Origin: Treponema sp.
GTDB taxonomy: Bacteria; Spirochaetota; Spirochaetia; Treponematales; Breznakiellaceae
NCBI GenBank assembly: GCA_009777735.1
Contig: WRLF01000002.1
Coordinates: 62,001-126,000 of the forward strand
Length of the DNA stretch: 64,000 nucleotides
Direction of reading: 5' to 3'
Below are positions 32,161 to 49,290 of this stretch, one piece after another. Made by a program: the position numbers and the translations under genes. Under the pieces are notes generated by a model, which was given only the letters and a program-made list of their open reading frames with translations, made no database searches and was not told where the DNA came from. Positions within the stretch are counted from its first letter, which is position 1, and each line of letters begins with the position of its first letter.

Positions 32161-32250
32161 ATGATCGATGAACCGATACAAATAGAGAAAGCCGGTTTTC
32201 CGTTGGCAGCAACTCTCAAACAGGTTTATCAATTAGGAGGCGTTTTATGA
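32161..32250 (+). CDS. possible 29-residue leader peptide
   Basis: A small frame from ATG 32161 (weak GCAGG upstream) ends with TGA overlapping the ATG of the next gene (ATGA, 32247-32250). The overlap and the AGGAGG inside its last codons would permit translational coupling. Nothing in the peptide is recognisable, and it may be chance. Confidence 0.25.
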   Translation: MIDEPIQIEKAGFPLAATLKQVYQLGGVL

Positions 32251-33266
32251 AGAAAGTACTGGTTGTCATTTTTGGATTTGTAGTAGTTATGGGAGCTTTT
32301 GCTGAATTTACTGTAAATGGCGGTTTAAGAATGAATTTTGGCACATTGTTTAATTTGGCGGATGAGGATATAGATCCAATGTGGCGGTATGACCTGCGGA
32401 ACACCGGCACGTTCATTCAAACCGGATATAGGGGAAATAATGTGAATGCCTGGGCCAGATGGAGAGGCGATGGGTCAATTTGGGGCAATGCAACGGCTTC
32501 CTTTGGGGCTTTCCGTCTTTCACTCGGTCATAGCTGGCTTCCCTGGACGCAGTTAAGCAGTTATGAACTTTATGGAGTCCAGAATAATAATTTTGGAGCA
32601 AGTGCCGTCAATGATCTGTTTATCCAGATTGGTTATATGAAAGATGGTGATCACCTTTATGCCGGTATCAGCGAAGGAAGAGGCGTTAACGGCAGTTTTA
32701 TCGGAACTAAAGAAGATGACGCGAGCTACAGGCCTTTCCCCGCTTTATATGCAGGGTATGACTATGTACAAACCGATGTATTTTCTGCAGGCGGGGCTTT
32801 TACCATCGTACCGCGCGGGAAAGCATATGAAGAAGGAAATTTGCCCTTCCTGTTCAATGTCCACGGCAAGCTTTTTAGCCTAAATCCCGTCACACTTGGG
32901 CTTAACATTGGTTTTTACAGCGCTCCTGCAAATGCTTTAGGCTATTTCAATATTACAGGCGGGGCGGCTTCAGGTATAATTCAAGGCGGTGAAGCTCTGG
33001 TTCTGGAAACGATGCTTGATCTGAGACTGGCTATCCCTGAATTTACCGTTTTGGGTTTTTCGGGAGCTTTTATCACAAATCTTGCAGATGAAGACAAAGG
33101 CGGTGGAGATTCAGCTCTTCAGTTTGGTTTGAGCGCTGCCATTAATCTTGGCGGTACCGGTTTTTCCCTTGTACCCGGCATTGGTTTTAATGTTGTTTTA
33201 ACCGACAATGAGGACAGAGAACGATCCGGAATGGATATAGGAATTACTCTTCGTTACAGCTTCTAA
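32247..33266 (+). CDS. outer-membrane-like beta-barrel protein
   Basis: A 339-residue exported protein. Signal peptide MKKVLVVIFGFVVVMGAFA, likely cut before EF. The mature protein is rich in Gly and aromatic residues with alternating beta strands (NAWARWRGDGSIWGN, FRLSLGHSWLPW) and ends in ITLRYSF, the C-terminal aromatic pattern read by the outer-membrane insertion machinery. No homologue can be named. AGGAGG precedes the ATG. It stands alone, converging with the HD-GYP gene (10-base gap). Confidence 0.75.
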   Translation: MKKVLVVIFGFVVVMGAFAEFTVNGGLRMNFGTLFNLADEDIDPMWRYDLRNTGTFIQTGYRGNNVNAWARWRGDGSIWGNATASFGAFRLSLGHSWLPWTQLSSYELYGVQNNNFGASAVNDLFIQIGYMKDGDHLYAGISEGRGVNGSFIGTKEDDASYRPFPALYAGYDYVQTDVFSAGGAFTIVPRGKAYEEGNLPFLFNVHGKLFSLNPVTLGLNIGFYSAPANALGYFNITGGAASGIIQGGEALVLETMLDLRLAIPEFTVLGFSGAFITNLADEDKGGGDSALQFGLSAAINLGGTGFSLVPGIGFNVVLTDNEDRERSGMDIGITLRYSF

Positions 33267-33276
33267 TTTAGCATGA

Positions 33277-34368
33277 TTAGTGGCTCATTGGTTTTCTGAA
33301 TTGTTCCGCTCTTGTATTAAACACTTCTACAAGAGCGGGATCAAAATGTTTTCCGCTGCCTTCGGTAATAATTCGTACCGCTTCTTCGTGTGTAAAGGCT
33401 TTTTTGTAGGGACGTTCCGAAATGAGTGCGTCGTACACATCGACGATTGCCATGACACGGCCCAGCAGAGGTATATCATACCCTTTAAGTCCGCGAGGAT
33501 AACCTGAGCCGTCCCATTTTTCATGGTGGTTGGCGGCAAATATTTTCGCGTATTTAAGGAAATCGCTTTCTTTTGCAAGCGTTTGAATCTTTTCTATTAT
33601 TCCTTCACCATAAGAAGCGTGTTTTTTCATTAACTCAAATTCCTCATCATTAAGTTTTTCTGTTTTTTTGAGGATATTGTCATTAATGGATATTTTTCCA
33701 ACATCATGAAGCTGACATGATTGGAGTAATAAATCTACATCCCAGCCATTTATTTCTTCTGAGTAAATACTGCTTTTTTCAAGTTCTTCCAGTATTATTT
33801 TTATCCCCTGCTGGGTACGGGTAATGTGGCCGCCGGTAATATCATCACGGCATTCAACCATATCGGCCATGGTTTTCAATAAAGCGTTCTGCAAATCCAA
33901 AACACCCTGGGTTTTTTCCCTCACCATTTCCTGCAGGTTTTCATTAAAATATTTTAATTCAACTGTCTGCCTTTCTAAAACTTTACGCTGTGCTTCAACG
34001 AGGAGATGTACTTCAATGCGTTTTAGGAGCAGTGACGGCTGAAAAGGCTTCGTGATGTAGTCGATGGCTCCCAGTGACAAGCCTTCAAGCTCATCATCTG
34101 AGTCAATGCGGGCAGTAACAAAGATAACCGGAATGTCTTTTGTTTCCGGTTTTTCCTTAAGAATTTTTATTGCATCATAACCGGTCATTACAGGCATATC
34201 AATGTCCAGCAGAATCATTGCGGGGTGGATGTTTTCCAGAAGGCTGAACATTTTTGCCGCCGAAGGGGCTGTAGCGACATCATAGTGATCTTCCAGTACA
34301 TTTATTCCAACCTTGAGATTAGTAGGGTTATCATCTACCAGTAAAACCAGCTTTTTTTCAACTGCCAT
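33277..34368 (-). CDS. response regulator: REC-HD-GYP (RpfG-like)
   Basis: A 363-residue output protein. Receiver at 5-125 with VDDNPTNL, the phospho-acceptor in ILLDIDMPVMTG and ITKPF. A coiled-coil helix (125-165) leads to an HD-GYP domain (170-355) with intact metal motif QLHDVGKI and HHEKWDGSGYP. It should hydrolyse c-di-GMP under phosphorelay control. It is the last gene of an eight-gene operon, 11 bases after the HPt-bearing kinase. Its receiver is the closest relative of the decayed receivers in three upstream kinases (APSAAKMFSLLE versus [12 protein letters not shown]). Confidence 0.93.
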   Translation of the reverse strand: MAVEKKLVLLVDDNPTNLKVGINVLEDHYDVATAPSAAKMFSLLENIHPAMILLDIDMPVMTGYDAIKILKEKPETKDIPVIFVTARIDSDDELEGLSLGAIDYITKPFQPSLLLKRIEVHLLVEAQRKVLERQTVELKYFNENLQEMVREKTQGVLDLQNALLKTMADMVECRDDITGGHITRTQQGIKIILEELEKSSIYSEEINGWDVDLLLQSCQLHDVGKISINDNILKKTEKLNDEEFELMKKHASYGEGIIEKIQTLAKESDFLKYAKIFAANHHEKWDGSGYPRGLKGYDIPLLGRVMAIVDVYDALISERPYKKAFTHEEAVRIITEGSGKHFDPALVEVFNTRAEQFRKPMSH

Positions 34369-34379
34369 TTATGTCCATC

Positions 34380-37301
34380 TTATTGAATTGCATTGTAAGT
34401 GGCAAGTAATTCCTCAACAATTTTTCTTGCATTGTCGTACTCAACCATCATCACTTCATCGGATATTTGTTCAAAGGCCTCTTTGCTTGCTGCATCCAAA
34501 GGCCGCTCACGGGATGCTTCTTTTATTTCTTTCACAATCCGGCTAATGTCATTTGCTTTATGAGATTCCAGCGCAGCTGCAAGATCTTTTAGTAATTGAG
34601 AGTTGAGAGTGGAGAATTGAGAGTTGGGAGTTGGGAGTTGAGAGTTGAGAGACTCTTGTTTTTCCAGGGCGGATGTAATGTTCTTTACGAGTTCTGCAAG
34701 CTGTTCTGTAAACACCGGGAGCTTGTCCTGAATTACCGCTATGTTTTCGGTCTTGGCAGCGCTTTCCAGTTCTGCGGCAAGGGCAGAAACAGCGGCTGCT
34801 CCGATAGAACCTGAGGCGCTTTTGAGGGCGTGTACCTGAGTGGCAAATTGCACAAGAGCGTCAGTCTGCGGAACCGTTTGAAAAAAGCTCATCCGGTCTT
34901 CTGCATCTTTGCAGAACATGGTCAACACGGCAATGTAGCCCGCTTCTGTTCCCCCCGTCATGGCAATCCCGCGTTGGGTGTCCAGTCCGGAAATAGCAGA
35001 GACTAGGGACTGGGGGTTGGGGGTTGGGGGATGGGAATTATTCATTGTTCTCTCCTTTTTTGCTTGTTGTACGGTTTCTTGGTTCTGCTTGTCCCGTATC
35101 CATATTTTTAATGTATCATCAAGTTGTCCTATGTCGATGGGTTTGGGGATAAAACCGTTAAAACCTTTTGACAGGAACATTTCCATGTTTCCCGCTAATG
35201 CGTTAGCGGTTAAGGCTATTATAGGGATCGGGGATTGGGGATTTTCCCATGAACGGATTATTCTGACCGCTTCAATGCCGTCCATACCCGGCATCATGTG
35301 GTCCATGAACACGATGTCATATTTATTTCCGCCCTGAATGAGGTAAATGGCTTCCTGCCCCGATTCTGCGGTATCTATCGATAAACCATAAGGTTCAAGC
35401 AGCCCGCGGGCTACCTGAAGGTTCACCGGTAAATCATCCACTACCAGTACTTTACCGTAGGGCATCCAGGAATGGTCAAATTCTTTTTCTTTTGCCGGAT
35501 TTGTATATTCAAAAAACTTTAATTTTTCTGCGGTTTCTTCTCCGATACTCTCGGTATCCGGAAGCCCCTGCATGAGGCTTACGGTAAAAACCGAACCTTT
35601 ACCGAATTCGCTTTCTGCGGTGATTGTACCGCCCATCATCTCCACCAGTTTTTTTGTTATGGCAAGCCCCAGCCCTGTTCCTTCAACCTTGCGGTTTTGT
35701 TTTATGTTAAGCTGCGTGTATTCTGAAAACAGTTTCCCCAGATCTTCAGGACGTATTCCCGCGCCGGTATCAGCTACCGTAAAGCTGATAAGAGAACAGG
35801 GAACAAAGTACTGATAATAATCCCTGTTTGCCATTGTTGCCTGCTGTTTTAATGTTTTAAATTCATACAGCTTCTCCGTTAATAGTTCACTGTTAACGGT
35901 TAACTTTATCGTACCGGTTTTCGTGTATTTAATCGCATTGGAAAGTATATTGTTCAGAACCTGTCTGACACGCAGTTCATCACCCAAAAGTCTGGCAGGA
36001 AAGTCTCCGTTTATTTCCAGTAAAAATATTATGGGTTTCGATCCGATTCGTACTTTGTTAAGATTAACCGTATCGTTTATTAAAGATGCAGTACAGTATT
36101 CTACCGGTACAAGTTCAAAACCGCCTGCTTCTATTTTGGAAATATCCAGAATGTCATTGATAATCCCTAACAGTGATGCACCTGATTGATGAATCTGCTG
36201 TAAGTCATTGGCGCTTTCCGACGGCAGCTTGCCTCGGTTAAGCACAATCTCCGAAAGGCCAATCACCGCATTTAGGGGGGTGCGAATCTCATGGCTCATT
36301 CTGGCAAGGAATGAGGACTTTGCCCTGCTTTCTTCGTCTGAACGCTCTTTAGCCGCAGAAAGACTTATCAGGACAAAGCAGAGTGCCAGAGAAAGGATAA
36401 ATCCCAGTATGATCATAATCAGAGCGGAGTACCGGAGGTCATGATAAAACCGGGAAGCGGGAGTGATAAGACCCACATACCAGTGGTTAAAAATTTGATT
36501 GATAAATACGATAACCGTGCCGCGGTCAGGATCAATTATCTGGCGAGCAAACACATTCCCGCCTGAGCGTAATGTCCTGGCCAAATCATCATACACACCG
36601 CCCAGTTCCTGAAGCTGCATACCCAGAAAATTTTTGTCTGGGTATGCCATGAAGGATAAATTCTGGCTGAGGAGCATGCCGAAGCCATCCTCGGTCAATG
36701 CCAGAGAGCCGACATATTCCGTCAGCCAGTTGATGTTAATGTCTACAACAAGAATACCAACCGGTGAATTATTAATAAAAATATTTCTGACTGCGGAAAC
36801 GATAGTGTCGCCGGTATGCCAGTCTATGTAAGGTGCGGTGTAAGCCACGTGAGTACCGCTCCGTATCGCAGTTTGATACCAGGGCCTCGTCTGCGGAATA
36901 TAATCTTCCCCGGGATTCATACCGATGCCGTCGTAAAATTCACCGTAAATAAAACCGTATATGCCATAAAAATCAATTAAACCCGCATCCCGATGCTGCA
37001 TCCAGCCGGTGGTAATGATAAAGTAATCGAGAATTTCCTGTTTGGAAGCGTCCCGCTCCAGCATGCCCTGCACAATATAATAAGAATTAAGGAGGGTCAC
37101 TTCTGTTTCTGAAAGTGCGGCCTTGACATTGGCCTCTGCGGACAAGAGCAATTCCTGCGCCCCATTTAACAGATGATTTCGCAGCATGCGGCTGTTAAAC
37201 AGATACGCCGCACCTGCCATAAGCGCAAAGGCTGCAAAAACAAACAGCAGTTGGAGATATTTACTTTGTTTGTTCTTCATTAATCCAGCCATAAATTTCA
37301 A
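34380..37301 (-). CDS. hybrid histidine kinase: Cache-HisKA-HATPase-REC-HPt
   Basis: A membrane kinase of up to 973 residues. Membrane segments near 18-36 and 291-314 flank a periplasmic Cache-like sensor with RPWYQTAIRSGTHVAYTAPY. The His box is [16 protein letters not shown] (His337), then an ATPase with ADTGAGIRPEDLGKLF and [18 protein letters not shown], and a receiver with VVDDLPVNLQ and FMDHMMPGMDG. The HPt domain near 800-890 has HALKSASGSIGA and is the only one in the cluster. Start is uncertain: TTG 37301, ATG 37292 or ATG 37280. It directly follows a BMP lipoprotein gene, its likely partner. Four heptanucleotide arrays lie in its loops and linkers. Confidence 0.93.
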   Translation of the reverse strand: MKFMAGLMKNKQSKYLQLLFVFAAFALMAGAAYLFNSRMLRNHLLNGAQELLLSAEANVKAALSETEVTLLNSYYIVQGMLERDASKQEILDYFIITTGWMQHRDAGLIDFYGIYGFIYGEFYDGIGMNPGEDYIPQTRPWYQTAIRSGTHVAYTAPYIDWHTGDTIVSAVRNIFINNSPVGILVVDININWLTEYVGSLALTEDGFGMLLSQNLSFMAYPDKNFLGMQLQELGGVYDDLARTLRSGGNVFARQIIDPDRGTVIVFINQIFNHWYVGLITPASRFYHDLRYSALIMIILGFILSLALCFVLISLSAAKERSDEESRAKSSFLARMSHEIRTPLNAVIGLSEIVLNRGKLPSESANDLQQIHQSGASLLGIINDILDISKIEAGGFELVPVEYCTASLINDTVNLNKVRIGSKPIIFLLEINGDFPARLLGDELRVRQVLNNILSNAIKYTKTGTIKLTVNSELLTEKLYEFKTLKQQATMANRDYYQYFVPCSLISFTVADTGAGIRPEDLGKLFSEYTQLNIKQNRKVEGTGLGLAITKKLVEMMGGTITAESEFGKGSVFTVSLMQGLPDTESIGEETAEKLKFFEYTNPAKEKEFDHSWMPYGKVLVVDDLPVNLQVARGLLEPYGLSIDTAESGQEAIYLIQGGNKYDIVFMDHMMPGMDGIEAVRIIRSWENPQSPIPIIALTANALAGNMEMFLSKGFNGFIPKPIDIGQLDDTLKIWIRDKQNQETVQQAKKERTMNNSHPPTPNPQSLVSAISGLDTQRGIAMTGGTEAGYIAVLTMFCKDAEDRMSFFQTVPQTDALVQFATQVHALKSASGSIGAAAVSALAAELESAAKTENIAVIQDKLPVFTEQLAELVKNITSALEKQESLNSQLPTPNSQFSTLNSQLLKDLAAALESHKANDISRIVKEIKEASRERPLDAASKEAFEQISDEVMMVEYDNARKIVEELLATYNAIQ
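34596..34651 (-). repeat. heptanucleotide array, 8 units, after HPt
   Basis: Eight tandem 7-base units (TTGAGAG, TTGGGAG and variants on the plus strand) inside the kinase gene, encoding an N/S/Q/L-rich linker behind the HPt domain. Confidence 0.9.
35006..35033 (-). repeat. heptanucleotide array, 4 units, before HPt
   Basis: GGGACTG, GGGGTTG, GGGGTTG, GGGGATG. It encodes a Pro/Asn-rich linker between the receiver and the HPt domain. Confidence 0.85.
35224..35244 (-). repeat. heptanucleotide array, 3 units, in receiver
   Basis: GGGATCG, GGGATTG, GGGATTT, encoding the ENPQSPIP loop before the IIALTA strand of the receiver. Confidence 0.6.
35878..35905 (-). repeat. heptanucleotide array, 4 units, in ATPase loop
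   Basis: GTTAATA, GTTCACT, GTTAACG, GTTAACT. It encodes LTVNSELLT in the ATPase region of the same kinase. Confidence 0.65.
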
Positions 37302-38441
37302 CTATAATTCCACTACATTTCGGTAATACCAATCAATGCCGCTGAGAATAACATCATCAGAAAGGGTTTTCCCTTCTTCTCCCACATATCTACCGTCGTT
37401 CGTTTCCAATACGTCACCAAAGACATTAAAACCATCATGCATAATACTCTGCCGTGCCGCTTCTACTGCCGCTTCTGCTCCCTGCGGGGCAAGGTCTCTA
37501 TTCAAGGGAGTAATATCAATGGCGTTTTCCGCAATGCCGTATAAATTTGTTCGCGGGACAAATGTTCCGTCTATGATGCTTTGCACGAACCGGGTATACA
37601 GGGCTTCCCAATTAAGTACCACCGAAGTAATCACTGCGTCCGGCGCTTCGCCGCTCATGTCAGCATTATAACCAATTGCCCAGACCCTGTTTCTTTCGGC
37701 TGCTATCTGCGCTGCCGGGGTGTTTGCATGAGCTGTAATAACATCACACCCTGCGGCGATAAGGGCATTAGCCGCATTGGTTTCTCCCATGGGATCATAC
37801 CAGCTATGGGTTACAGCTACATATATCTGAGCATCGGGGTTTACCGATGCGACACCCAGAGCAAAGGCATTTACTGCACCCGTTACTTCGCTGTTGTCTT
37901 TTCCCCGTGCAGCCACAAAGCCTATCCTGTTCGTTTGTGTTTTAAGCCCTGCGACAATGCCGGAAAGATACCGCCCCTGGTAGAGCCGAATGGAATAATT
38001 GGTAAAATTACGGTCATTGAATTTAATACCCGTAGCATGAGCAAACACGACAGACGGGAATTCCAGCGCCAGTCGTTCGCATGTGTCCATATATCCCCAA
38101 CTCATGGCGATAATAATATTTGCCCCTTCTGCGATACAGTCCCTTATGGCCCCCTCTGCTGCTACGGGGTCTCCGGTAAATATATTAGTTTTGCGGATAA
38201 TCTGGGAATCTGCAAGGCCGATTTTCCTTTGCATTTCCACCGTTCCCCTGTACTGCGCCTGATCAAACAGGGAATCGCTGTCAATTTCATTTGGATGAAT
38301 AACACCGATAACGATCCTTTCTTTCGGAAAAGGCTGTCCAAACTCCCATTCAGTAGCCTGCTGTTCCCCGCACCCTGTAAAACAAATAACAAGTAACAAA
38401 TAGCAAATAGCAAAAATTATTCTCCATTCCCCATTTTTCAT
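37302..38441 (-). CDS. BMP-family substrate-binding lipoprotein
   Basis: A 379-residue lipoprotein of the basic-membrane-protein (Med/PnrA) class, periplasmic-binding fold. Lipobox ICFTGC gives Cys24. Family segments include VIGVIHPNEID, IIIAMSWGYMD, SVVFAHATG, RYLSGIVAGLKT and VWAIGYNADMS. Members bind nucleosides or other small ligands, usually for an ABC importer. No importer gene lies here, and the gene lies directly before a Cache-sensor kinase, so a role as a ligand receptor for signalling is likely. The first 25 codons are built of heptamer repeats. ATGA overlap with the upstream BMP gene. Confidence 0.9.
   Translation of the reverse strand: MKNGEWRIIFAICYLLLVICFTGCGEQQATEWEFGQPFPKERIVIGVIHPNEIDSDSLFDQAQYRGTVEMQRKIGLADSQIIRKTNIFTGDPVAAEGAIRDCIAEGANIIIAMSWGYMDTCERLALEFPSVVFAHATGIKFNDRNFTNYSIRLYQGRYLSGIVAGLKTQTNRIGFVAARGKDNSEVTGAVNAFALGVASVNPDAQIYVAVTHSWYDPMGETNAANALIAAGCDVITAHANTPAAQIAAERNRVWAIGYNADMSGEAPDAVITSVVLNWEALYTRFVQSIIDGTFVPRTNLYGIAENAIDITPLNRDLAPQGAEAAVEAARQSIMHDGFNVFGDVLETNDGRYVGEEGKTLSDDVILSGIDWYYRNVVEL
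38382..38439 (-). repeat. heptanucleotide repeats forming a signal peptide
   Basis: Five units of the ACAAATA/GCAAATA type (38382-38416), then three units of the ATTCTCC/ATTCCCC/ATTTTTC type (38419-38439). Together they encode almost the whole signal peptide of the BMP lipoprotein. Confidence 0.8.
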
Positions 38442-39556
38442 AATTCCTCCACCGTGCGGTAATACCAGTCGATACCAAATTGAATTTCCCTGTCCGGAAG
38501 GGACTCTCCTTCACTGCCGATTAACCTGCCTTCATTGGTTTCCATAATCCTCTCAAACACATCAAAAGCGCCTGACTCAATACGTTGCCGTTCTTCATCC
38601 AGTATACGGACGGTTTCAGGTTCCAATGCGACGATTTCGCTTAAGGGAGTTAGGCCGACAATGCCATCCGCCAGCGAGCCGTACCAGGGCGTAGTGGTGA
38701 AACTGCCGTCTATTACGCTGTGCACAAGGTACGTATAGTACGCACCCCAATGCCACAGTACCGAAGTAAGAACTGCGGCGGGGGCATCAATGCTCATATC
38801 GGTGTTGTAACCGATACCCCAGACATTGGCTCTTTCCGCTTCAAGCTGGGGATTGGCAGTGTCTACATGTTGGGCAATAACATCACAGCCGGTATCAATG
38901 AGATCTCTGGCCGCCATTGCTTCTCCCATGGGGTCAAACCAGCTATGGGTTACCTTGACATAGACTCTCGCCTGGGGGTTTACTTTTTCCACTCCCAGGG
39001 CAAAAGCGTTAATTCCCCCGGTTACTTCGCTGTTGCCGGTTCCCCATGCCGCCACATATCCAATCCTGTTCGTTTGGGTTTGTGCGCCTGCGATAATGCC
39101 GGAAAGATACCGTGCCTGGTAGATCCTGCCGAAATAGTTGGTAAAATTGCTGTCATTGTTTCGGTAACCCGATGCATGGGCAAAAACAACCGATGGATAT
39201 TCTTCAGCCATTTTTTCAACAGCATCCATATACCCCCAGCTTGTCGCAATAATGATGTTGGCCCCTCTGGCAATTAGTTCCCGTATGGCGTTTTCAACCG
39301 CCTGGGGGTCAGAATAGTCCACATGGTTTCTGTAGAGCATCTGGCTGTCTTCAAGACCAAGACGCAGTTGCATCTCTGCAATGCCCGTTTGATGGGCATA
39401 GGCATAGCCGGAGTTTTCGATGAAAGGGTCGGTAATATGGAGTACCCCTACCATTACATTCTCTTTTGCCAGGGGCATTCCCGGCTTCCATTCCTTCTCA
39501 CATGAGGGGAAAATCAGAGCCACGATAACTGTTAAAACGATTACACAATACTTCAT
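38438..39556 (-). CDS. BMP-family substrate-binding lipoprotein, second paralogue
   Basis: A 372-residue paralogue of the downstream BMP protein. Lipobox IFPSC gives Cys19. It shares MVGVLHITDPF, IIIATSWGYMDAVEKM, SVVFAHASGYR, RYLSGIIAGAQTQTNRIGYVAAW and VWGIGYNTDMS with its neighbour, and the same LxxIDWYYRTVEEL end. Divergence across the ligand pocket suggests a different ligand. It overlaps the upstream kinase stop and the downstream BMP start by 4 bases each (ATGA), so all three are translationally coupled. Its signal peptide is not repeat-derived. Confidence 0.9.
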   Translation of the reverse strand: MKYCVIVLTVIVALIFPSCEKEWKPGMPLAKENVMVGVLHITDPFIENSGYAYAHQTGIAEMQLRLGLEDSQMLYRNHVDYSDPQAVENAIRELIARGANIIIATSWGYMDAVEKMAEEYPSVVFAHASGYRNNDSNFTNYFGRIYQARYLSGIIAGAQTQTNRIGYVAAWGTGNSEVTGGINAFALGVEKVNPQARVYVKVTHSWFDPMGEAMAARDLIDTGCDVIAQHVDTANPQLEAERANVWGIGYNTDMSIDAPAAVLTSVLWHWGAYYTYLVHSVIDGSFTTTPWYGSLADGIVGLTPLSEIVALEPETVRILDEERQRIESGAFDVFERIMETNEGRLIGSEGESLPDREIQFGIDWYYRTVEEL

Positions 39557-42249
39557 GTGTTTCCTCCCTTAAAATAATTTTCAACACAGGTGATGAGTGT
39601 TGATGGATCTTCTATTATTACCACTGGTATTTCGTTAATTACCGGCGGATCGCCGGAATTGTGCAGAGCGGCATTCATCACAATCAATGCAGGGCGGTCG
39701 TTTTCCAGAATCGTGAACATTTTTTCCGCCGAAGGAGCAGTAATAACATCATATATTTCTTCCAGTATATTTTTACTCTGCTTCAGATTCGCAAGATTGT
39801 TGTCAACAAGCAAAATAAGCTTCTTCTTAATTCTCAATTCTCCATTTTCAATTTTAACTTCTCTCTTCTCTTTCGGTATCCAGCGGTCAAGCGATTCGTA
39901 AAGTTTGGAAACATCAATGGGTTTGGCAAGAAAATCGTTAAAACCTTTTTCCAAAAACATCTCCCGCATTCCCGAAACGGCGTTAGCTGTCAGCGCAATA
40001 ATAGGGACTTCACTTCTCCCTTGTTCCCAGGCTCTTATAGCGGCGGTTGCTTCAATGCCGTCCATTTCGGGCATCATGTGATCCATGAACACGAGGTCGT
40101 ACCCTTCACCGCTGCCGGCACGTGACTTTATCAGTTCGATTGCTTCCGCGCCGCTGAGGCAGGTTTCAACAACTGCCCCGTAAGGAGCAAGGAGGCCCTC
40201 GGCAACTTTGAGGTTCGTGGCAAGATCGTCCACTACCAGAAGCCGGGCGGTTGGAATGGTAAAGCGGTCCTCGTTCATTGCCCGGGAACCGTTTAAATAA
40301 TCCGGCCTGTCATTTTTGCAGTTTAATGTATTCGCGATGGAAAGGGACTGCACCGGCAGGGACACAAAGCGTACATTGGGGACATAGGCTTCAGTCCCCC
40401 ATTCCACCATGAGGGCAACAGGTGGCGGCTTCCCATTGGGATAGACTGCTTTATCCATTATGGGCTTGATACGTTCGTAGAGTCCGTAACCGGAGAACAC
40501 AAAATACCATTCTTCACGTGCAAGAGCTTCGGCAAAATCTTCCAGGCTTGCTGCCATGACATAGGGAACGCCCAGGTTTTTCAGAGTCCAGCTTAGGGAT
40601 TGTGCATAAACAAGACGGCGTTCATAGATCAGCACCTTTCTGGAACCTGCGTTTTCTACCTCGGCAAAGGGTGTATGTGAAACAATCTCCTGTGGTATGA
40701 TCACTGTAAACGTACTGCCTTTGCCGTATTCGCTGGATATGTTGATATCCCCGCCCATGGCAAGGCAGAGCTGCTTGGTGATGGCAAGACCAAGTCCGGT
40801 CCCTTCAATGCCCCGATTCCTGGTGGTATCAACCTGCATAAAGCTCGAAAAGAGTTTTTCCTGATCTTCCGGTTTTATGCCCTGCCCGGTGTCGCTAATT
40901 TCAATCTTTAATAAAATGTGTGTATCTGTCCGGCTTTCGCCGGTTTCTGGAAGAAGCCGAGTAATAGACATGCTGACATGTCCCTTCTCGGTGAACTTAG
41001 CTGCATTGGAAAGAAGATTAATGATGATCTGCCGCAGCCGCACTTCGTCACCAAAAAGTGTGTTGGGGATTTTGCTGTCGATGTTGGTATAAAACCGGAC
41101 AGGTTTCTCCATGAGCCGTATACGGATAATATTAACCGTGTCGTTAACGAGAGACAAAAGCATATACCTGGCAGGGTTGATCTCAAGCTTGCCCGCCTCG
41201 ATTTTGGAGAAATCCAGAATGTCGTTGATTATGGAAATAAGGCTGATTGCCGCATGTTTTATATCCTGCACATCAGAACGGGCATCCTCCGGCAGATTCT
41301 TCATCAACAGCAGTTCCGACATTCCGGTAATGGCGTTCATGGGGGTGCGAATCTCATGGCTCATGTTGGCAAGAAAGTCACTTTTGGATTTCGAGGCAGC
41401 TTCTGCTTTTTCTTTCTCATAGTGAGCTTCAACAGCTTCAAGTTTTAACTTTTGAACCTGTTTCAAATTTTGCAGCATCTCGCTTAATCTGAGCGACAGG
41501 AGTGAAATCTCATCATTGTTTTCGGATTGTTCAAATTGAACCTCAAGTTCGCCGCCGGCTACTTTCTCTGCCACTGCGCCCAATCCTGAGAGCGGAATTG
41601 CAATAGACCTTGTGACAAGAAGCGCAAATATTACGGATACAATCAACGACAGTAATACAAGCGTCAGCATTAGCAGTGAGTTAAATATTGCGCTCTCGTT
41701 GTTTCTTGCAGCCATTATTTCCGATTGTTCCAGATTTTTATTGAATGCAACATTGATGAAGTAAATAATTGTATTGGATATTGGTTCGCGCCGGTTTATT
41801 GATAATGCAAGCGCTTCCTCCCGGCGAGCCTGTTCCACCAAATCAAAAATTTCATTTAATACAGGAATGTATGTTTCTTCATACAATTCCAGCAAATTTA
41901 CCATGTCCTGCATTTCCCCGGGTGTAAAAACATCGCTGAATTGATCCTGCATTGTAATATAATCGTTAAGGCGTGATAAAAAATTTTCCGTGTGTTCTCT
42001 TGTTGTCAGTACAACATAATTAGTTAACGTAACATCATTGATATACAGCATATTATATACACCGGCATCAATATATGCATTGTAATCGTATATATCATTT
42101 AAAATGGTAACATTATGTATTGTCCTCACCGCAGAGTTTGCAATGGAGGTAAGGCTAATATAACCTGTTAAACCAACAGTTAGTGTAAAAAAAACAACAA
42201 TGAAAAAAGAGATCAACAGCCTTGTTTTAATCCGGAATTTTCGCAGCAT
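39553..42249 (-). CDS. hybrid histidine kinase: helical sensor-HAMP-HisKA-HATPase-REC-pseudoREC
   Basis: An 898-residue membrane kinase. Two membrane segments (about 12-32 and 190-212) flank a mostly helical periplasmic region resembling the four-helix bundle of chemoreceptors, followed by HAMP. His box [16 protein letters not shown], ATPase with [24 protein letters not shown] decayed receiver-like domain (VLIYERRLVYAQ) precedes the true receiver ([21 protein letters not shown]). The last 90 residues are a second decayed receiver with VDNNLANLKQ and VMNAAL, Asn replacing the phospho-acceptor Asp. It lies 2 bases after the LivK-type lipoprotein gene and overlaps a BMP gene. Confidence 0.92.
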   Translation of the reverse strand: MLRKFRIKTRLLISFFIVVFFTLTVGLTGYISLTSIANSAVRTIHNVTILNDIYDYNAYIDAGVYNMLYINDVTLTNYVVLTTREHTENFLSRLNDYITMQDQFSDVFTPGEMQDMVNLLELYEETYIPVLNEIFDLVEQARREEALALSINRREPISNTIIYFINVAFNKNLEQSEIMAARNNESAIFNSLLMLTLVLLSLIVSVIFALLVTRSIAIPLSGLGAVAEKVAGGELEVQFEQSENNDEISLLSLRLSEMLQNLKQVQKLKLEAVEAHYEKEKAEAASKSKSDFLANMSHEIRTPMNAITGMSELLLMKNLPEDARSDVQDIKHAAISLISIINDILDFSKIEAGKLEINPARYMLLSLVNDTVNIIRIRLMEKPVRFYTNIDSKIPNTLFGDEVRLRQIIINLLSNAAKFTEKGHVSMSITRLLPETGESRTDTHILLKIEISDTGQGIKPEDQEKLFSSFMQVDTTRNRGIEGTGLGLAITKQLCLAMGGDINISSEYGKGSTFTVIIPQEIVSHTPFAEVENAGSRKVLIYERRLVYAQSLSWTLKNLGVPYVMAASLEDFAEALAREEWYFVFSGYGLYERIKPIMDKAVYPNGKPPPVALMVEWGTEAYVPNVRFVSLPVQSLSIANTLNCKNDRPDYLNGSRAMNEDRFTIPTARLLVVDDLATNLKVAEGLLAPYGAVVETCLSGAEAIELIKSRAGSGEGYDLVFMDHMMPEMDGIEATAAIRAWEQGRSEVPIIALTANAVSGMREMFLEKGFNDFLAKPIDVSKLYESLDRWIPKEKREVKIENGELRIKKKLILLVDNNLANLKQSKNILEEIYDVITAPSAEKMFTILENDRPALIVMNAALHNSGDPPVINEIPVVIIEDPSTLITCVENYFKGGNT
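39829..39863 (-). repeat. heptanucleotide array before pseudo-receiver
   Basis: AATTCTC, AATTCTC, CATTTTC, AATTTTA, ACTTCTC. It encodes the charged linker between receiver and C-terminal pseudo-receiver. Confidence 0.8.
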
Positions 42250-42251
42250 TG

Positions 42252-43439
42252 TTATCTCCGGCTCTGCTCACGCAGAGTTCTCTGCTCACGCAGAGATTGC
42301 AGACTCATTTTCTCAAAAGTTGAGTATTGACCGTCTCTTATTTGAATGGCATACACATTTATCTGAGGGTTATTGTTCTCGTCAAAACGTATTTTCCCCA
42401 ATAATGTTTCCAGTTCCATTGTTTTCATGGCGGAGACTATATCATCCCGGTTTGTACTGCCTGCTATAGCAATTGCTTCTGCCAGTATGTACACACAGGT
42501 ATAAGCGGTCGCGGAACCGGTGAGGGGCATTTGAGAAAAGGAGCTAAAATAATCTCTGACAAATTGCACCACCTGTGGAGTTTCATCATCGAAAGAAAAT
42601 GGAGCAGAATAAAAAACCCTCTCCATGGCTTCGGGATTGTATACATAAGTCAAAAGCCCGTCCCAGGCATCAGATCCCAATAAATATGTATCGCTCAGGC
42701 CTAACTCGTGGGCTGAATTAACCAGTATTGCCGCAGGAATAAAATCTTCCGGACAAAATATAACGGCAGGAGGGTTCTCGGCATATTTACTCAAAAGCGA
42801 GGGAAATTCTTCTTCCGATGAAAAAAACTCTCTGGCAATAACGTGCCCGCCCAGTGATGAAAATGATTCGGTAAAAACTCCGGCTGCCTGTATGTATGTA
42901 TTAAAGTCCCGGTTAATAAAAACAACTGCTGTTTCTGCGCCAAGGGACAGGTATGCGAAATACGCCATTACCTCTGCCTGGTAATCGTCAATAAAAATAG
43001 ACCTGAAAATATTTCTGCGGCCCACTGTTACCAGGGGATTTGAAGCAGTAGGCGAAATGATCGGTATGCCGTCTTTTTCAGAAGCTTCGGCAAGTGCCAT
43101 GGTCGGCCCCGAATAACTTGAGCCGATGATGGCAGCCACTCCTCTTTCTTTTAATTCGTTATACTGCTGCACAATATATTCTTCATCTCCCCGGTCATTT
43201 AATACAATGATGTCCAGCATCTTTCCCAATATGCCGCCCCTTGCATTGATCTCTTCCTTGGCAAGCTGCAGTCCATTGAGAGCACGCAGACCCTCGTCGG
43301 AGCCGCCGCCGGTAAGCGGAAGAAGCGCACCTATGGTGATGTACTCCTCTTGCTGCGGTCTGGCTGAACAGCCTGCGGCTGAAAAGCCGAAAATTGGTAA
43401 AATGGCCAGACATAAAGCGCAGATAGTAAATATCTTCAT
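42252..43439 (-). CDS. LivK-type (Peripla_BP_6) substrate-binding lipoprotein
   Basis: A 395-residue lipoprotein of the branched-chain amino-acid-binding type. Lipobox FSAAGC gives Cys24. Fold segments: YITIGALLPLTGGG, GLQLAKEEINARGGILGK, AIIGSSYSGPTMALA, GIPIISPTASNP and YLLGSDAWD. The ligand is probably an amino acid or small amide. No permease genes follow; it is set between two kinase genes, sharing one base with the upstream stop (TAATG). The C-terminal REQRTLREQ is encoded by a doubled 16-base palindrome. Confidence 0.9.
   Translation of the reverse strand: MKIFTICALCLAILPIFGFSAAGCSARPQQEEYITIGALLPLTGGGSDEGLRALNGLQLAKEEINARGGILGKMLDIIVLNDRGDEEYIVQQYNELKERGVAAIIGSSYSGPTMALAEASEKDGIPIISPTASNPLVTVGRRNIFRSIFIDDYQAEVMAYFAYLSLGAETAVVFINRDFNTYIQAAGVFTESFSSLGGHVIAREFFSSEEEFPSLLSKYAENPPAVIFCPEDFIPAAILVNSAHELGLSDTYLLGSDAWDGLLTYVYNPEAMERVFYSAPFSFDDETPQVVQFVRDYFSSFSQMPLTGSATAYTCVYILAEAIAIAGSTNRDDIVSAMKTMELETLLGKIRFDENNNPQINVYAIQIRDGQYSTFEKMSLQSLREQRTLREQSRR
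42262..42295. repeat. duplicated 16-base palindrome CTCTGCTCACGCAGAG
   Basis: Two exact copies (42262-42277 and 42280-42295) separated by 2 bases, each with 6-base arms and a TCAC loop, at the 3' end of the LivK-type gene. Confidence 0.85.
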
Positions 43440-45961
43440 TATTTATCGCCTCTCTGTAAATGGTTCTCAACAGCGGCAAGGAGTGTTGCAGAATCATATG
43501 GTTCTGCTATCAAGACCACCGGCACATCTTCTGGTGCTTGAGAAGAATCGCGCATACTTTCATTCATCAGAATAATATCTGGCCTTGTGTTTTCTAAAAG
43601 CTTGAACATCTTCTCCGCCGAAGGAGCAGTTATCACAACATATTTTTCCTCCAGCATATTTTTACCGGCCCTGAGGTTCGCTGGGCTGCTATCAATCAAT
43701 AAAATAAGCTTCTTCTCTTTTTTCTCTTTACTTTTTTCTTTTTTCTCTTGCATAATCCAGCGGTCAAGCACTTCGTCAAGTTTGGAAACATCTATTGGCT
43801 TCGTAAGAAAATCATTAAAGCCTTTTTCCAGAAACATTTCCCGCATTCCCGATACGGCGTTGGCCGTTAACGCAATAATAGGTACATTCTCTACGCTCGC
43901 TCTTTCACTTCTCCCTTGTTCCCAGGCCCTTATAGCGGCGGTTGCTTCAATGCCGTCCATTTCGGGCATCATGTGATCCATGAACACCAGATCATACCCT
44001 TTGCCTTGTATTGCATGACGCATTACCAGTTCTATGGCTTTCGCTCCGTCCAGGCAGGTGTCAACTACTGCCATGTAAGGGGCAAGCAGGCCCTCGGTTA
44101 CTCTTAGATTTGTGGGAAGGTCATCTACCACCAGAATCCGTGCACCGGGAATGGTAAACCGTATTACGTTTTCTGCTTCGGAATTGTTAATATAATCCTG
44201 TTTACTATCAGAATCTCCCACTGCAGATAAAGGCGCATCCGTATCAATATCCTGGGGGATAATCACGGTAAATTCACTGCCATAGCCGTACTTGCTCGTT
44301 ACACTGATTTCCCCGTCCATGGCATTACACAACTGCCTGGTAATGGCAAGACCCAGACCGGTTCCTTCAATGCCGTAGTTCTTTTTCGTGTTAACCTGCA
44401 TAAAGTCTGAAAAAAGTTTTTCCTGATCTTCGGGTTTTATTCCCTGCCCGGTATCGCTGATAATTATTTTTAGAAATATCTTTTTTTCTTCCCGGTTTTC
44501 TGTGTTAATAGTCATGCTGATATGACCCTTGTCGGTAAATTTTACCGCATTGGAAAGAAGGTTAAGGATAATCTGCCGCAGCCGTACCTCGTCTCCAAAA
44601 AGGTTATTGGGGATAGTGCTGTCGATATTGGTATAAAATTGAACACGTTTTTCCACGAGTTTCATACGGATGATATTGACCGTGTCATTTACCAGGGATG
44701 AAAGCTTGTACCTTGCGGGAATAATTTCCAGCTTGCCAGCTTCGATTTTGGAAAAATCCAGAATATCGTTGATAATGGAAATGAGGTTTGATGCTGCTTG
44801 TTTGATATCCTGTGCATCATGCCGGGAATCATCCGGAAGTTCTCTCCGTAACAACAGTTCCGACATCCCGACAATTGCGTTCATGGGAGTGCGGATTTCA
44901 TGGCTCATGTTGGCCAGAAAATTGCTTTTTGCCTGCGAAGCAGCCGATGCCTGCCGGTTTGCCTCCAGTAATAGTTTATTCTGTTCTGCCAGTACGTTTT
45001 CAGATCGTGCAACAAATATATTTATTACAACAAACATGCTCATTACAAGAAATAACATTCCAAAGAATACCATATTTAATGATTGATTAAGCGCCAAGAA
45101 ACCGGGCAGCGGATAACTCACTGCCAGATACCATTCCATTGCAGGGATGGAGCTTACGAGATACATGCTGCTGTCGTAGATAAAGGTTTGGCTTTCCGCA
45201 TCAGAAAGCATGCCGGCAATTCTAATTAATTCCACCCCAGAACCGCCAAGATGATCGTCAAGACGGACTTTATTGTGAACCAGTTCATAATCTATAGCCG
45301 AAGTAATTTCATCAAACTTGTTAAACATATATTGTGTGATATTTCTGTCGAATTCCCTGTAGCCGGAAGCGACAAAATCAGAAAATTCAGTAAGGTTAAT
45401 ACCTGTACCAAGCATTCCCACCGGGGTTTTGCCGCGATCCTCTGTGATAACAAATACAGGAACATTGACCCAAAGATTGATTTGCTGTAAATCAGGATTG
45501 TAATTTATATTTAAATTATGCGTTTCCGTATTAAAAAGCGTTAAATTATACCAATAAGATTCCGGATCATCGGGATCCACAACATAGGGTTCGTTGCCGG
45601 TGGAATAAAATATTTTATCTACATCATTAATCCAGAACACCAGCTTATCCTTAAAATGTTCCTGATAAAGGGCAAATTCAATATGCGCCAATGCTGCAAG
45701 ATCCGGATCAGCCGGATTCACAAAATGCTCCCGAATAACCGGAGTATCCGCCATTTTCAGCACAAGGGATAATTCGCTGTTTACCGTTGTTGCCAAACGT
45801 AATCTCATTGTTTCTGATGCTATAGAGAGCTGCTGTTCAATATAAGACCGGTTGATTTGGCGTGCTGAGATTATATATGCCGTAGCGGCTATCAAAAATA
45901 TAATTAAAAAAAAGATACAGGAAAAAACCAGAAACTTTTTATTGAAAATATATTTTTTCAA
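43439..45961 (-). CDS. hybrid histidine kinase: dCache-like-HisKA-HATPase-REC-pseudoREC
   Basis: An 840-residue membrane kinase. Membrane segments near 12-33 and 297-322 flank a large periplasmic double-Cache-like sensor ([27 protein letters not shown]). His box [16 protein letters not shown], ATPase [20 protein letters not shown] and [12 protein letters not shown], receiver [11 protein letters not shown] with [11 protein letters not shown]. The C-terminal pseudo-receiver has [10 protein letters not shown] and IILMNESM, lacking the acidic pair and the phospho-Asp. It overlaps the 45958 kinase stop by 4 bases and the LivK-type gene by 1. Confidence 0.92.
43713..43747 (-). repeat. heptanucleotide array before pseudo-receiver
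   Basis: Five 7-base units TTCTCTT, TTTTCTC, TTTACTT, TTTTCTT, TTTTCTC, encoding the Lys/Glu-rich linker [14 protein letters not shown]. Confidence 0.8.
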
Positions 45962-48900
45962 TTGTTTTCTCCCTCAAAATACTTTTCAACACAGCTGATG
46001 AGTGTTGATGGATCATCTATAATTACCACTGGTATTTCGTTAATTACCAGCGGATCGCCGGAATTGTGCAGAACGGCATTCATCACAATCAATGCAGGGC
46101 GGTTGTTATCCAGCAGCTTGATCATTTTTTCCGCCGAAGGCGCAGTTGCCACAATATATTTTTCCTCCAACATTTTTTTTCCAGCCCTGAGATTCGCAGG
46201 ACTGCTATCCACCAGCAACACCAATTTCTTCTCACTTTTACCTTTTACCTTTTCCTTTTTACCGTGTACAATCCAGCGGTCAAGCGTTTCGTCCAGTTTG
46301 GAAACATCAATGGGTTTGGCAAGAAAGTCGCTAAAACCTTTTTCCAGAAACATTTCCCGCATACCCGATACTGCGTTGGCAGTCAGGGCTATGATAGGGA
46401 GTGAGGTTTGACCACTAAAATCTTTATTTGGTATTTTTGTGGTCAGGTTCGCTTCCCAGGCCCTTATGGCGGCGGTTGTTTCAATGCCGTCCATTTCGGG
46501 CATCATGTGATCCATGAACACCATGTCGTACCCTTGGCCATCCTTTGCACGCGACTTTACCAGTTCAATTGCTTCGGCGCCGCTCAGGCAAGTTTCAACT
46601 GTTGCCTTGTAGGCAGCAAGCAGCCCTTCGGCGACTTTAAGGTTCGTGGCAAGGTCGTCTACTACCAGAATACGTGCCTGTGGTATGGCAAATTGAACGG
46701 CGCCAACTGCAGAACTGTTAATGCTGTTTTGTATAGTAATCGAATCTCCAACTGTTGAGAAAGGCGAAGCCTGGTCAAGGTACTGCGGAATGATCACGGT
46801 AAACTCACTGCCTTTACCGTACTCGCTCGTTACGGTAATATCTCCGTTCATGGCAACACAGAGCTGCTTGGTAATGGCAAGACCCAACCCCGTCCCCTCA
46901 AGACTCCGGTTTCTTTTTGTATCCACCTGCATAAATGCCGAGAAGAGTTTTTCCTGATCCTCGGGTTTAATGCCCTGTCCGGTATCGCTTACGGTGATAC
47001 GTAAATATATGGGCTGGGGGGAAGAAAGAGACCGGGTACCGGGTACCGGGGAACGGGCTGGTACCTGATCCCCGATCCCTTCTATTTTCATGGTGATTTT
47101 CCCTTTGTCGGTAAACTTTGCCGCATTGGAGAGCAAGTTGAGGATAATCTGCCGCAGACGTACCTCGTCTCCCAAAAGATTATTGGGAATGGCGTTATCA
47201 ATGTCACTGGTAAACTCAATGGGTTTCTCCATAATCCGCAGACGGATGATATTGACTACATCGTTGACGAGAGACAAAAGCATATACCTTACGGGAATGA
47301 TTTCCAGTTTTCCGGCTTCAATTTTGGAAAAATCCAGAATATCGTTGATAATGGAGATAAGGTTTGACGATGCCTTCTTAATATCCCGTACTTCACTCTG
47401 GGCGTCATCGGGAAGATTTCTTCTCAGCAGCAGTTCCGCCATTCCGGTGATTGCGTTCATGGGGGTACGGATCTCGTGACTCATGTTCGCAAGAAAATCG
47501 CTCTTTGCCCGGGATGCCTGAACGGCAATTTCAGTCTGTTCTTCCAGTTCCAGGGTTCGTTCATGTACCGCCGTTTCCAGTGCGATATTGGACAGCTCCA
47601 GCCGTTTCTTTCCCTGATAGGTTCTTTGAAATAAGATAACCAGAAGGATAATAACCATTACAAGCAGAAAAGAAGAGCCGATGAGCCAGGGGCGCTGCTG
47701 CCGCGCCGCTAATCCCTGATAATCAAATGTTCTATGCAGCCATCTGCCGGCGATCCATGGCACATCAACCAAACTTAACGCTTTATCAATTATTAAAGCA
47801 AGGGCGGCATGGTCTTTATGAATACCCATTGTGGTTCCGGTAGTAAAGTCAAAAATAAAATTTGCCTTGTATTCGGTAACTTCATGGAGGTTTATCAGGG
47901 TAAGCAGCCGCCGCTCGTTGGACATCACCATATCAACTTCACCGCGGAATAATGCCTCGAAAGCGGCATCGGAACTTTCAAATTCTCGTGCATTTTCATG
48001 GTTTGGATACCACCGGTGAAACTGTTCGGCAAAGGCCGTATTCCTGCCATAACCTACTGTTATGTCCCATATCTCGCTTGCGGTGACATTATGGTATCCC
48101 GAGCTTGAAATAAGCGCATAACGATCGTAAAGAAGGATTGTTTCCGGCCACAGAAAACGATCTTCACGATCCGCAGAGCGCAGAAGTTCCGAGACTATCA
48201 ACGCTTCTCCGCTTTCAAGCTTTTGATACAGAACAGGCCAATTCGTGTGTTCGTCATTGGCAATCTCAAAACTCAGCCCGGTAACGGATCCAATTTCACT
48301 CAATACATCAAAGAAAATTCCCTGCCACTCTTTATCATATCTGTTATAAAAACTGAGTGGGTAATTGTAATGTTCCGCCGCATAGCGGACAACAGCGGTA
48401 TTTTTAACATATGTTTTTTCATCATCATCGAGCTTGCTAAAGAATTTATGTCTTCGGTACCTTTGAAATCCCTGATAGTACAGTATATTCAGATGATCTG
48501 CACCGCCGCTTAAGAGCACTTTTTGTACGATTGATATAACGGGAGCAAGTTCCGGTTTTTGTGTTGTCAAGGAAACCGGGCTGATAATATTTGGAAAAAA
48601 ATCCTTTGCGATAACATCGCCGTAGGAGTCAAATATTGACTCGGTGGGGTTCTCGTGAATGAAAGCATCTATCTCGCCGCTATGGAGCATGTCATGCACC
48701 ACACTGTTGCTTTCGATATACACCGCTTCAAATGTACCTGGAACAAGGGAAGAAATTACATTGGCGGCGACCGAGCTTCCCGCCATCAGTGCAAACCGGG
48801 CAGGGCGTGATGCCTGAATTTCAATCAGGGGTGTGCTGCCTTCAAGGCGGAAGTATTTTAAGGTGCGCCGTGCAATGGGGGTGGTCATAAAATAGATCAG

Positions 48901-49290
48901 CCGCCTTTCTTCGGTAGGCGTCATGGTGCCGGTAAAGTCAATTTCACCGGATTCAAGTCCGGTAAGCACTTCGGCAAAGGGGTGTATGGCAGGGATAAAA
49001 GGGATACCGAAGATCCCGGTCAGCCATTCGCAGGCCAGAGCAGAAAACCCATTAATCTCTCCGTTTTCATCGATAAACGCTTCGGTGCTTGCCGGCATTG
49101 CGTACACAAAAAAGCGGTATTGTTCCTGCAGCGCTTCAATTGCATTTATCTCGTCCTGTGTTATTCCGCGAACATCCCGAAACGAGATAGCATGAACCGG
49201 ATTGCCGCCTTGGTTCGCAAGCCTCATTTCACAGCTTGAAACCACAACGAGACTGATAACCAATAAAACTACCGCTTTCAAGCGCTGCAC
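45958..49290 (-). CDS. BvgS-like hybrid kinase: 2xSBP_bac_3-HisKA-HATPase-REC-pseudoREC
   Basis: An 1110-residue membrane kinase, first gene of the operon. A signal peptide with VVVSSC, possibly lipidated, precedes two SBP_bac_3 Venus-flytrap domains (about 55-285 and 300-535; [16 protein letters not shown] and [12 protein letters not shown] are typical). A membrane segment near 553-575 leads to [16 protein letters not shown], an ATPase with [12 protein letters not shown] and a receiver with [10 protein letters not shown] and [11 protein letters not shown]. The C-terminal pseudo-receiver has [10 protein letters not shown] and VMNAVL. Such kinases sense ligands directly. GTG 49290 is used here; a TTG at 49281, 8 bases after GGGG, may be better. 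Confidence 0.92.
46234..46261 (-). repeat. heptanucleotide array before pseudo-receiver
   Basis: ACTTTTA, CCTTTTA, CCTTTTC, CTTTTTA. It encodes the Lys/Gly-rich linker [13 protein letters not shown]. Confidence 0.8.
47031..47079 (-). repeat. heptanucleotide arrays in ATPase loop
   Basis: Four ACCGGGT-type units (47031-47058) followed by TGGTACC, TGATCCC, CGATCCC (47059-47079). They encode a Pro/Gly/Arg-rich insertion ([15 protein letters not shown]) in the ATPase that the sister kinases lack. Confidence 0.75.

Follow-up and report, generated by a model that had tools for sequence, protein, structure and literature searches.

This study concerns a 64,000-nucleotide stretch of Treponema sp. 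DNA (hereafter the window; assembly GCA_009777735.1, contig WRLF01000002.1, positions 62,001 to 126,000) and, within it, a run of eight minus-strand genes at 33277-49290 encoding four hybrid histidine kinases (K1-K4), two BMP lipoproteins, one LivK-type lipoprotein and a REC-HD-GYP protein. The operon is genuine and conserved; it belongs to a known class of sensory operons but is unusually elaborate. Its oddities are that the histidine phosphotransfer (HPt) domain occurs in one of the four kinases and that the other three carry a miniature receiver (pREC). Our overall interpretation, held at about even confidence, is a multi-input phosphorelay that controls the breakdown of cyclic di-GMP (c-di-GMP): the lipoproteins would act as receptors, K4 would relay phosphate through its HPt, and K1-K3 would borrow that HPt. 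The host assembly (G000; compared genomes are labelled G, fetched loci L and host contigs C) comprises 2.69 Mb in 39 contigs at 83% completeness, and the organism is a relative of termite-gut spirochaetes.

Read from 49290 to 33277, the gene order is K1, K2, the LivK-type lipoprotein, K3, BMP1, BMP2, K4 and REC-HD-GYP. All eight open reading frames (ORFs) are intact, and the successive junctions measure -4, -1, +2, -4, -4, 0 and +11 bases. A preliminary description of the window had reported a tightly joined run at the same coordinates, with four kinases bearing different sensors, two BMP proteins, one LivK-type protein and a terminal REC-HD-GYP; Pfam domains agree with this inventory. An NCBIfam search with the run's proteins gave none over the cut-off among the matches listed (at most 25 per protein). 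The preliminary description had also proposed looking for the same order in other spirochaetes, and two relatives carry versions of it. A five-gene version, kinase(pREC)-BMP1-BMP2-K4(HPt)-HD-GYP, lies in another genus (L065; WRKT01000030.1, Treponema sp. Th196P3bin120; it matches G222, a member of another genus in the same family, without a difference over the two stretches compared). Within the same genus, G009 has seven genes: kinase-HPt, LivK, 4HB kinase-HPt, SENS2 kinase-HPt (SENS2 being our name for the K2 sensor type), MCP, dCache kinase-HPt and HD-GYP. LivK, the K2, K3 and K4 kinase types and HD-GYP are thus common to G009 and the window. The existence of these five-gene and seven-gene relatives therefore indicates that the run is not a product of chance. 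Because the BMPs of L065 are 75-76% identical to those of the window while BMP2 is 50-59% identical to same-genus BMPs, sequence identity suggests that BMP genes were transferred between genera.

From the domains, intact residues, gene order and comparative conservation observed, we infer contacts, phosphotransfer steps, a direction of control and ligands. The BMP1, BMP2 and LivK-type lipoproteins would bind solutes outside the inner membrane; a BMP would dock on the dCache domain of K4 and LivK on the 4HB domain of K3, and in K1 the SBP_bac_3 domains of the kinase itself would bind the ligand. K4 would autophosphorylate and pass phosphate from His to Asp of its own receiver, to His of its own HPt and to Asp of the HD-GYP receiver, switching the phosphodiesterase. 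The intact receivers of K1-K3, which have no HPt, would hand phosphate to the K4 HPt, so that the inputs would converge.

The last two genes carry the firmest part of this mechanism. K4 (34380..37301) is a dCache hybrid kinase containing HisKA, HATPase, REC and an HPt domain (PF01627, HALKSASGSIGA; 34689..34928), and both Pfam and the HPt motif place such a domain in K4 alone among the run's kinases, as had been claimed. The adjacent REC-HD-GYP gene (33277..34368; receiver at 34012..34347) encodes a predicted phosphorylation-controlled c-di-GMP phosphodiesterase, which retains the catalytic motifs HDVGK and HHEKWDGSGYP and aligns best with the solved HD-GYP enzymes 4r8z and 4mcw. When 17 loci from 16 same-genus genomes were fetched for the HD-GYP-type receiver, an HPt hybrid kinase was found directly upstream on the same strand in 15 (the kinase of L176 is cut by a contig end and that of L178 appears as two ORFs); the two exceptions are L175, which stops at a contig edge, and L180, with its kinase on the other strand. 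The phosphate route from K4 through its HPt to HD-GYP that had been proposed fits this adjacency. In Xanthomonas, RpfC is a hybrid kinase with REC and a C-terminal HPt, encoded with RpfG, a REC-HD-GYP c-di-GMP phosphodiesterase (PMC3749722; all papers given by PMC number are cited from excerpts). K4 and its neighbour share this arrangement, and by analogy with the RpfC/RpfG scheme the route is very probable. Unlike RpfC, which perceives the fatty-acid signal DSF, K4 has a dCache sensor, and its run includes BMP lipoproteins and three further HPt-less kinases. In the host genome GGDEF is matched 3 times and HD_5, over the cut-off, 12 times (two of these in a single ORF); c-di-GMP should therefore be available. 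In L070, a dCache kinase carries an HPt and then an intact HD-GYP-type receiver in the same protein. In L179-L182 and L184-L188 the HPt kinase/REC-HD-GYP pair lies near ORFs of 128, ~162, 320 and 750 residues, which resemble a chemotaxis cluster by size and by a CheY-like ORF.

K1 (45958..49290) invites a second comparison. It carries two SBP_bac_3 sensor stretches, HisKA, HATPase, REC and a pREC tail, and a lipobox-like VVSSC is read near its N-terminus. In the spirochaete Borrelia, Hk1 combines SBP_3 periplasmic sensors, kinase, REC and HPt beside Rrp1, a REC c-di-GMP enzyme (excerpt of PMC4013479). K1 resembles Hk1 in its sensors, but it has no HPt and the run's regulator is an HD-GYP protein with no REC-GGDEF partner alongside. 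Hk1/Rrp1 is moreover a single-kinase system, and Rrp1 is a GGDEF cyclase, of opposite chemistry to the run's HD-GYP. On host contig C14 (L222:4251-10159) an HD-GYP gene overlaps that of a 1609-residue kinase with an SBP3-like sensor and an HPt, a second Hk1-like pair whose chemistry is likewise opposite to that of Rrp1.

All four kinases keep the H-box, the N, G1 and G2 boxes and the checked receiver residues. The catalytic cores had been called near-identical, which proved incorrect: K1-K3 are 68-75% identical to one another, whereas K4 is only ~46% identical to them, and its receiver 50-59%. The K4 core is 68% identical to its L065 counterpart. Because both of these are divergent, and because cores of the K1-K3 kind (62-70%) are found in the dCache kinases of G009 and G016, the catalytic part of K4 was probably exchanged and its sensor retained. 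K2 (43439..45961) has an N-terminal sensor without a Pfam match, 72% identical to that of a G009 kinase; in the G009 operon, a chemoreceptor (L215:4729-6909) has the same sensor type as the adjoining SENS2 kinase, which hints at a common ligand for chemotaxis and c-di-GMP control. The 4HB_MCP sensor of K3 (39553..42249; HAMP under the cut-off) is 68% identical to its G009 counterpart. Between the HATPase and REC of K3 lies a 145-residue mid-region (40246..40689), also without a Pfam match. Its counterparts number nine sequences from six loci (42-61% identical), and a PDB profile search with it gave nothing below E 0.2; we read it, by position, as pseudo-receiver-like.

The C-terminus of K1, of K2 and of K3 is formed by a shortened, degenerate receiver of ~90 residues that falls under the Pfam receiver cut-off (45961..46236, 43442..43717 and 39556..39828, respectively). 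The domains named in the preliminary description were all found, but this one had been overlooked. Other pRECs aside, the domain of the run that it matches best is the HD-GYP protein's receiver, its likely source (60%, 44% and 43% identity over 52, 87 and 84 residues for K1, K2 and K3). Six copies are known, namely those of K1-K3, two on host contig C37 and one in L065. Every copy has Asn where the phosphorylatable Asp should stand, and alpha3, alpha4, beta5 and the conserved Lys are absent from the alignment. An AlphaFold model from the six sequences is compact (beta1-alpha1-beta2-alpha2-beta3-beta4-helix; pLDDT 89.8, pTM 0.81), and its top Foldseek matches are ordinary receivers. The domain is therefore like a pseudo-receiver in having receiver homology without the phosphotransfer residues, but unlike one in that the model, ending in one last helix, does not have the complete fold with an alpha4-beta5-alpha5 face. 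A frameshift or assembly artefact was rejected, since the ORFs are open and six copies in two genera share the Asp-to-Asn change and the same missing segments. A profile search at E 1e-24, with only 13 candidates scored per genome, recovered full-length pREC from two genomes among 390 of the order, with five copies in G000 and one in G222; a third match at this threshold, in G009, covers positions 2-60 within a 355-residue ORF. At E 1e-12 among 39 genomes of the genus, other matches mostly end near position 60, and two are longer (G012, positions 3-86 in a 131-residue ORF; G033, positions 4-76 in a 134-residue ORF). Among 83 hybrid kinases with distinct C-termini in the fetched loci and the window, a count that omits ORFs truncated where a contig or locus stops, 56 end in HPt, 6 in pREC, 21 in neither and none in both; the loci had been fetched for other reasons and the six pRECs are non-independent. 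Two of these pREC kinases lie on the 8,805-base contig C37 (L050) beside two NarL-like regulator genes, and one of them has a core 84% identical to that of K4.

The degeneracy of pREC raises the possibility that it is a decaying, functionless leftover, a reading compatible with any other interpretation of the run. Its rarity in the order would suit this, as would its dN/dS of 0.34-0.60, which exceeds that of REC (0.14-0.23) and of the core (0.10-0.14), with the interval for the K1-K3 pair (0.31-1.17) reaching past 1. The intervals for K1-K2 and K2-K3 lie below 1, however, and among pREC and HD-type receiver pairs 21 of 28 are unsaturated, all 21 with dN/dS below 1 (the pairs are non-independent). 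The confident, compact fold of the model and the uniform losses across six open copies in two genera also speak against decay. Because dN/dS is above that of REC and core yet the intervals are mostly below 1, pREC seems to be constrained, if loosely, and we regard a mere remnant as unlikely, though a serious contender.

The candidate roles of pREC are a tether or mimic at the HPt, a kinase inhibitor as in ShkA and CikA, recruitment of a regulator as may occur with the VirA receiver, or a remnant. ShkA and CikA contain a pseudo-receiver that inhibits autophosphorylation (excerpt of PMC12632262), and the receiver of VirA has been proposed to recruit a regulator (excerpt of PMC4705274). Like the ShkA and CikA domains, pREC is a receiver-like domain in a hybrid kinase that would be unable to accept phosphate (excerpt of PMC12632262); unlike them, it has lost alpha3 and alpha4-beta5 entirely, stands at the C-terminus and resembles the receiver of the output protein. 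Feedback by c-di-GMP at a ShkA-type site was excluded, since that site is formed by alpha4-beta5-alpha5 (excerpt of PMC12632262) and pREC has neither alpha4 nor beta5. A more specific proposal is that in K1-K3 a dead, shortened copy of the enzyme's receiver replaces HPt and docks on the K4 HPt as a tether or competitor, a receiver mimic serving as an address tag. The HPt-facing helix of receivers is alpha1, which pREC retains. We consider this proposal improbable; if true, it would describe a hub-and-spoke phosphorelay built by domain swap, in which the availability of the shared HPt depends on sensor input.

Whether K1-K3 feed the K4 HPt at all is the weaker half of the overall interpretation. 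Hybrid kinases that borrow an HPt are known from the LadS/GacS/GacA system, whose genes are scattered; those of the run abut and end in an enzyme. In Pseudomonas the borrowing kinase, LadS, uses another kinase's HPt and the output is control of small-RNA levels (excerpt of PMC4866733). K1-K3 would be LadS-like in this respect, each having an intact REC and no HPt. Because K2 and K3 are without the HPt that their G009 counterparts have (this comparison with relatives covers the K2, K3 and K4 types rather than K1 orthologues), because their receivers are intact and because LadS provides a precedent, passage of phosphate from K1-K3 through the K4 HPt is plausible by analogy, though we place it a little short of an even chance. 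The earlier proposal that all four receivers act through one HPt is very probable for K4 and plausible for K1-K3.

Several observations weigh against sharing, or against a single dedicated unit. In G009 all four kinases, including the K2, K3 and K4 types, carry their own HPt over the Pfam cut-off, so that inputs could converge without sharing; sharing would therefore be at most a derived state. A LivK-linked, K3-type 4HB kinase in G019 (L217:1669-4706) has neither HPt nor pREC, and the 4HB kinase of G021 has an HPt score of 24.2 against a Pfam cut-off of 24.6; HPt loss is therefore not tied to this operon. The host genome holds 17 HPt matches, three of them in ORFs of 119-204 residues, which are potential partners of K1-K3, and the C37 pREC kinases adjoin NarL-like regulators with no HD-GYP in view. 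Promoter-like sites inside the run number 43 against 32.0 +/- 5.4 in shuffles, so they are not depleted as a single transcript might lead one to expect. These HPts and the C37 regulators, together with the differing core and receiver of K4, favour an alternative in which K4-HPt-HD-GYP is a single RpfC/RpfG-type relay, K1-K3 use HPts or regulators encoded elsewhere, and the genes are neighbours since they sense related ligands. Yet HD-GYP closes the run in the window, L065 and G009 alike, LivK and three kinase types are common with G009, and the three short-ORF HPts sit on contigs other than that of the run. We judge this alternative unlikely.

A further alternative is that K1-K3 act on K4 by contact, as RetS-like heterodimers or through pREC-mediated inhibition, with no phosphate passed. 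Their combination of no HPt with a dead receiver would suit such a role, for which the ShkA and CikA pseudo-receivers (excerpt of PMC12632262) and the block of GacS by RetS through a heterodimer (excerpt of PMC4866733) are precedents. The checked kinase and receiver residues that K1-K3 keep would be needless in pure contact partners, however, and the low identity between the K4 core and theirs argues against heterodimers. Regulation by contact is thus improbable.

The binding lipoproteins had been described as receptors rather than transport proteins, on the ground that no permease genes accompany them, and both points gained support. None of the run's eight proteins is assigned by Pfam to an ABC ATPase or permease family. 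BMP1 (38438..39556) and BMP2 (37302..38441) both match Bmp (PF02608), and BMP2 is separated from K4 by 0 bases. An alignment scan for BMP yielded 78 loci, in 69 of which BMP ORFs were called, 79 in all; the closer neighbour is a kinase for 29 of them and an ABC ATPase for 28, and 22 have neither within 1500 bases on the same strand. A tree of 88 rows was then considered (nine duplicates, L054-L058, L016, L019, L023 and L063, two unlabelled loci, L025 and L026, and the short row L139 were omitted). One branch with 100/100 support holds all 30 kinase-linked rows, two of them the window's, plus 10 unlabelled ones, and none of its 40 rows is ABC-linked; the other 48 rows comprise 36 ABC-linked and 12 unlabelled. 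With unlabelled rows counted as non-kinase, the kinase label changes 10 times on the tree against 25.2 in shuffles. A long-branch warning applies to rows including L104, L092 and one of L090, and some unlabelled rows are possibly miscalled (one G050 place is ABC-linked in L021 and unlabelled in L063). The host genome's two other BMPs, on C3 and C5, lie beside permeases and an ATPase-like ORF (the ATPase named from sequence alone), as expected of PnrA-like transporter components, whereas the window's BMPs have no such ATPase and permease alongside. Among solved structures, 6pi5 (an atrazine-binding protein) and 3s99 come closest to them, by a clear margin over TmpC/PnrA 2fqw; we presume, from what is known of the family, that the ligand of BMP1 and BMP2 is perhaps purine-like. 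It is likely that BMP acts on the dCache domain of K4. In LuxP/LuxQ, TorT/TorS and ChvE/VirA a periplasmic binding protein is the co-receptor of a hybrid kinase; the idea here is the same, with a BMP-family receptor and a dCache kinase. A split ABC operon was rejected as the origin of the window's BMPs, since each of the permease pairs on C3 and C5 comes with a BMP of its own (a comparison that excludes the C7 and C13 permeases). That BMP and LivK are ordinary transport proteins with permeases elsewhere is very improbable: the genome does contain seven BPD_transp_2 permease matches, including those on C7 and C13 (whose binding-protein partners are outside the comparison), but the C3 and C5 pairs are already served, the window's BMP clade is free of ABC linkage and BMP2 abuts K4.

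The LivK-type lipoprotein (Peripla_BP_6; 42252..43439) is assigned to K3 by gene order. In the window and in G009, G021 and G019 the next gene downstream of it encodes a 4HB kinase, the relatives' LivK being 59-65% identical (the comparison takes in identities of at least 59% and leaves out hits of 37% or less). Pairing with K2 is less likely, since the three closest orthologues all share this position next to a 4HB kinase, although L049 has a distant LivK relative whose neighbour, on the opposite strand, is a dCache kinase.

Relatives of the BMP-kinase front end indicate how firmly it is tied to HD-GYP. REC-HD-GYP lies beside BMP and dCache genes in L065, L067 and L104 (upstream in L104). Across the 28 fetched BMP-clade loci, HD-GYP is in view in six (L065, L067, L080, L081, L089 and L104), although contig ends truncate some loci; elsewhere the output is a cyclase or SpoIIE, and many loci have no output in view, some by reason of a contig end. 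These counts tell against a fixed link to c-di-GMP breakdown. Because relatives pair the same BMP and dCache genes with HD-GYP, cyclase or SpoIIE, the BMP-dCache front end looks like a module with exchangeable outputs, the output here being predicted c-di-GMP breakdown. The swapped outputs are REC-cyclases at L078:8646-9950 and L085:14294-15607 and a REC-SpoIIE at L090:14413-15567. In a record labelled Candidatus Fibrimonadaceae (L080:10001-12705), a BMP gene overlaps a dCache-HD-GYP fusion, which amounts to the circuit without its relay. Possible output decay was seen in G020 (L055:2900-8381), with a 1608-residue kinase of two cores and an HD-GYP ORF of just 213 residues, and in G005 (L056:8004-8375), where an HD-GYP-type receiver ORF stands alone on the opposite strand. 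In G019 (L217) a lone 120-residue ORF of this receiver type follows the LivK-linked 4HB kinase. At least 8 of the 28 fetched BMP-clade loci bear termite sample codes (L065, L066, L071, L079, L086, L089, L091 and L092; codes according to an excerpt of PMC7024585).

Outside the run, the window holds a further hybrid kinase at 29661-31811 on the minus strand (GAF, two receiver stretches), and between the two lies a gene at 32247-33266 without a Pfam match. A large kinase repertoire is apparent from 51 matches to the K2 kinase in the 2.69-Mb host genome at E 1e-10, some being pieces of one gene. Among open-licence papers, no description of the run's layout was found by title or start of abstract, nor was a paper combining PnrA, histidine kinase and basic membrane protein, or one on histidine kinases or two-component systems of termite Treponema.

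The neighbours of the BMP subclade described here are sensor kinases, not transporters, and its records carry the labels of several phyla. In pREC, a receiver has shrunk to a mini-domain that is confidently folded in the model. The presence of HPt in all four kinases of G009 and in one of four in the window offers a natural comparison for the evolution of HPt sharing. The run as a whole illustrates a way in which several nutrient receptors of a bacterium may be coupled to a single c-di-GMP phosphodiesterase.

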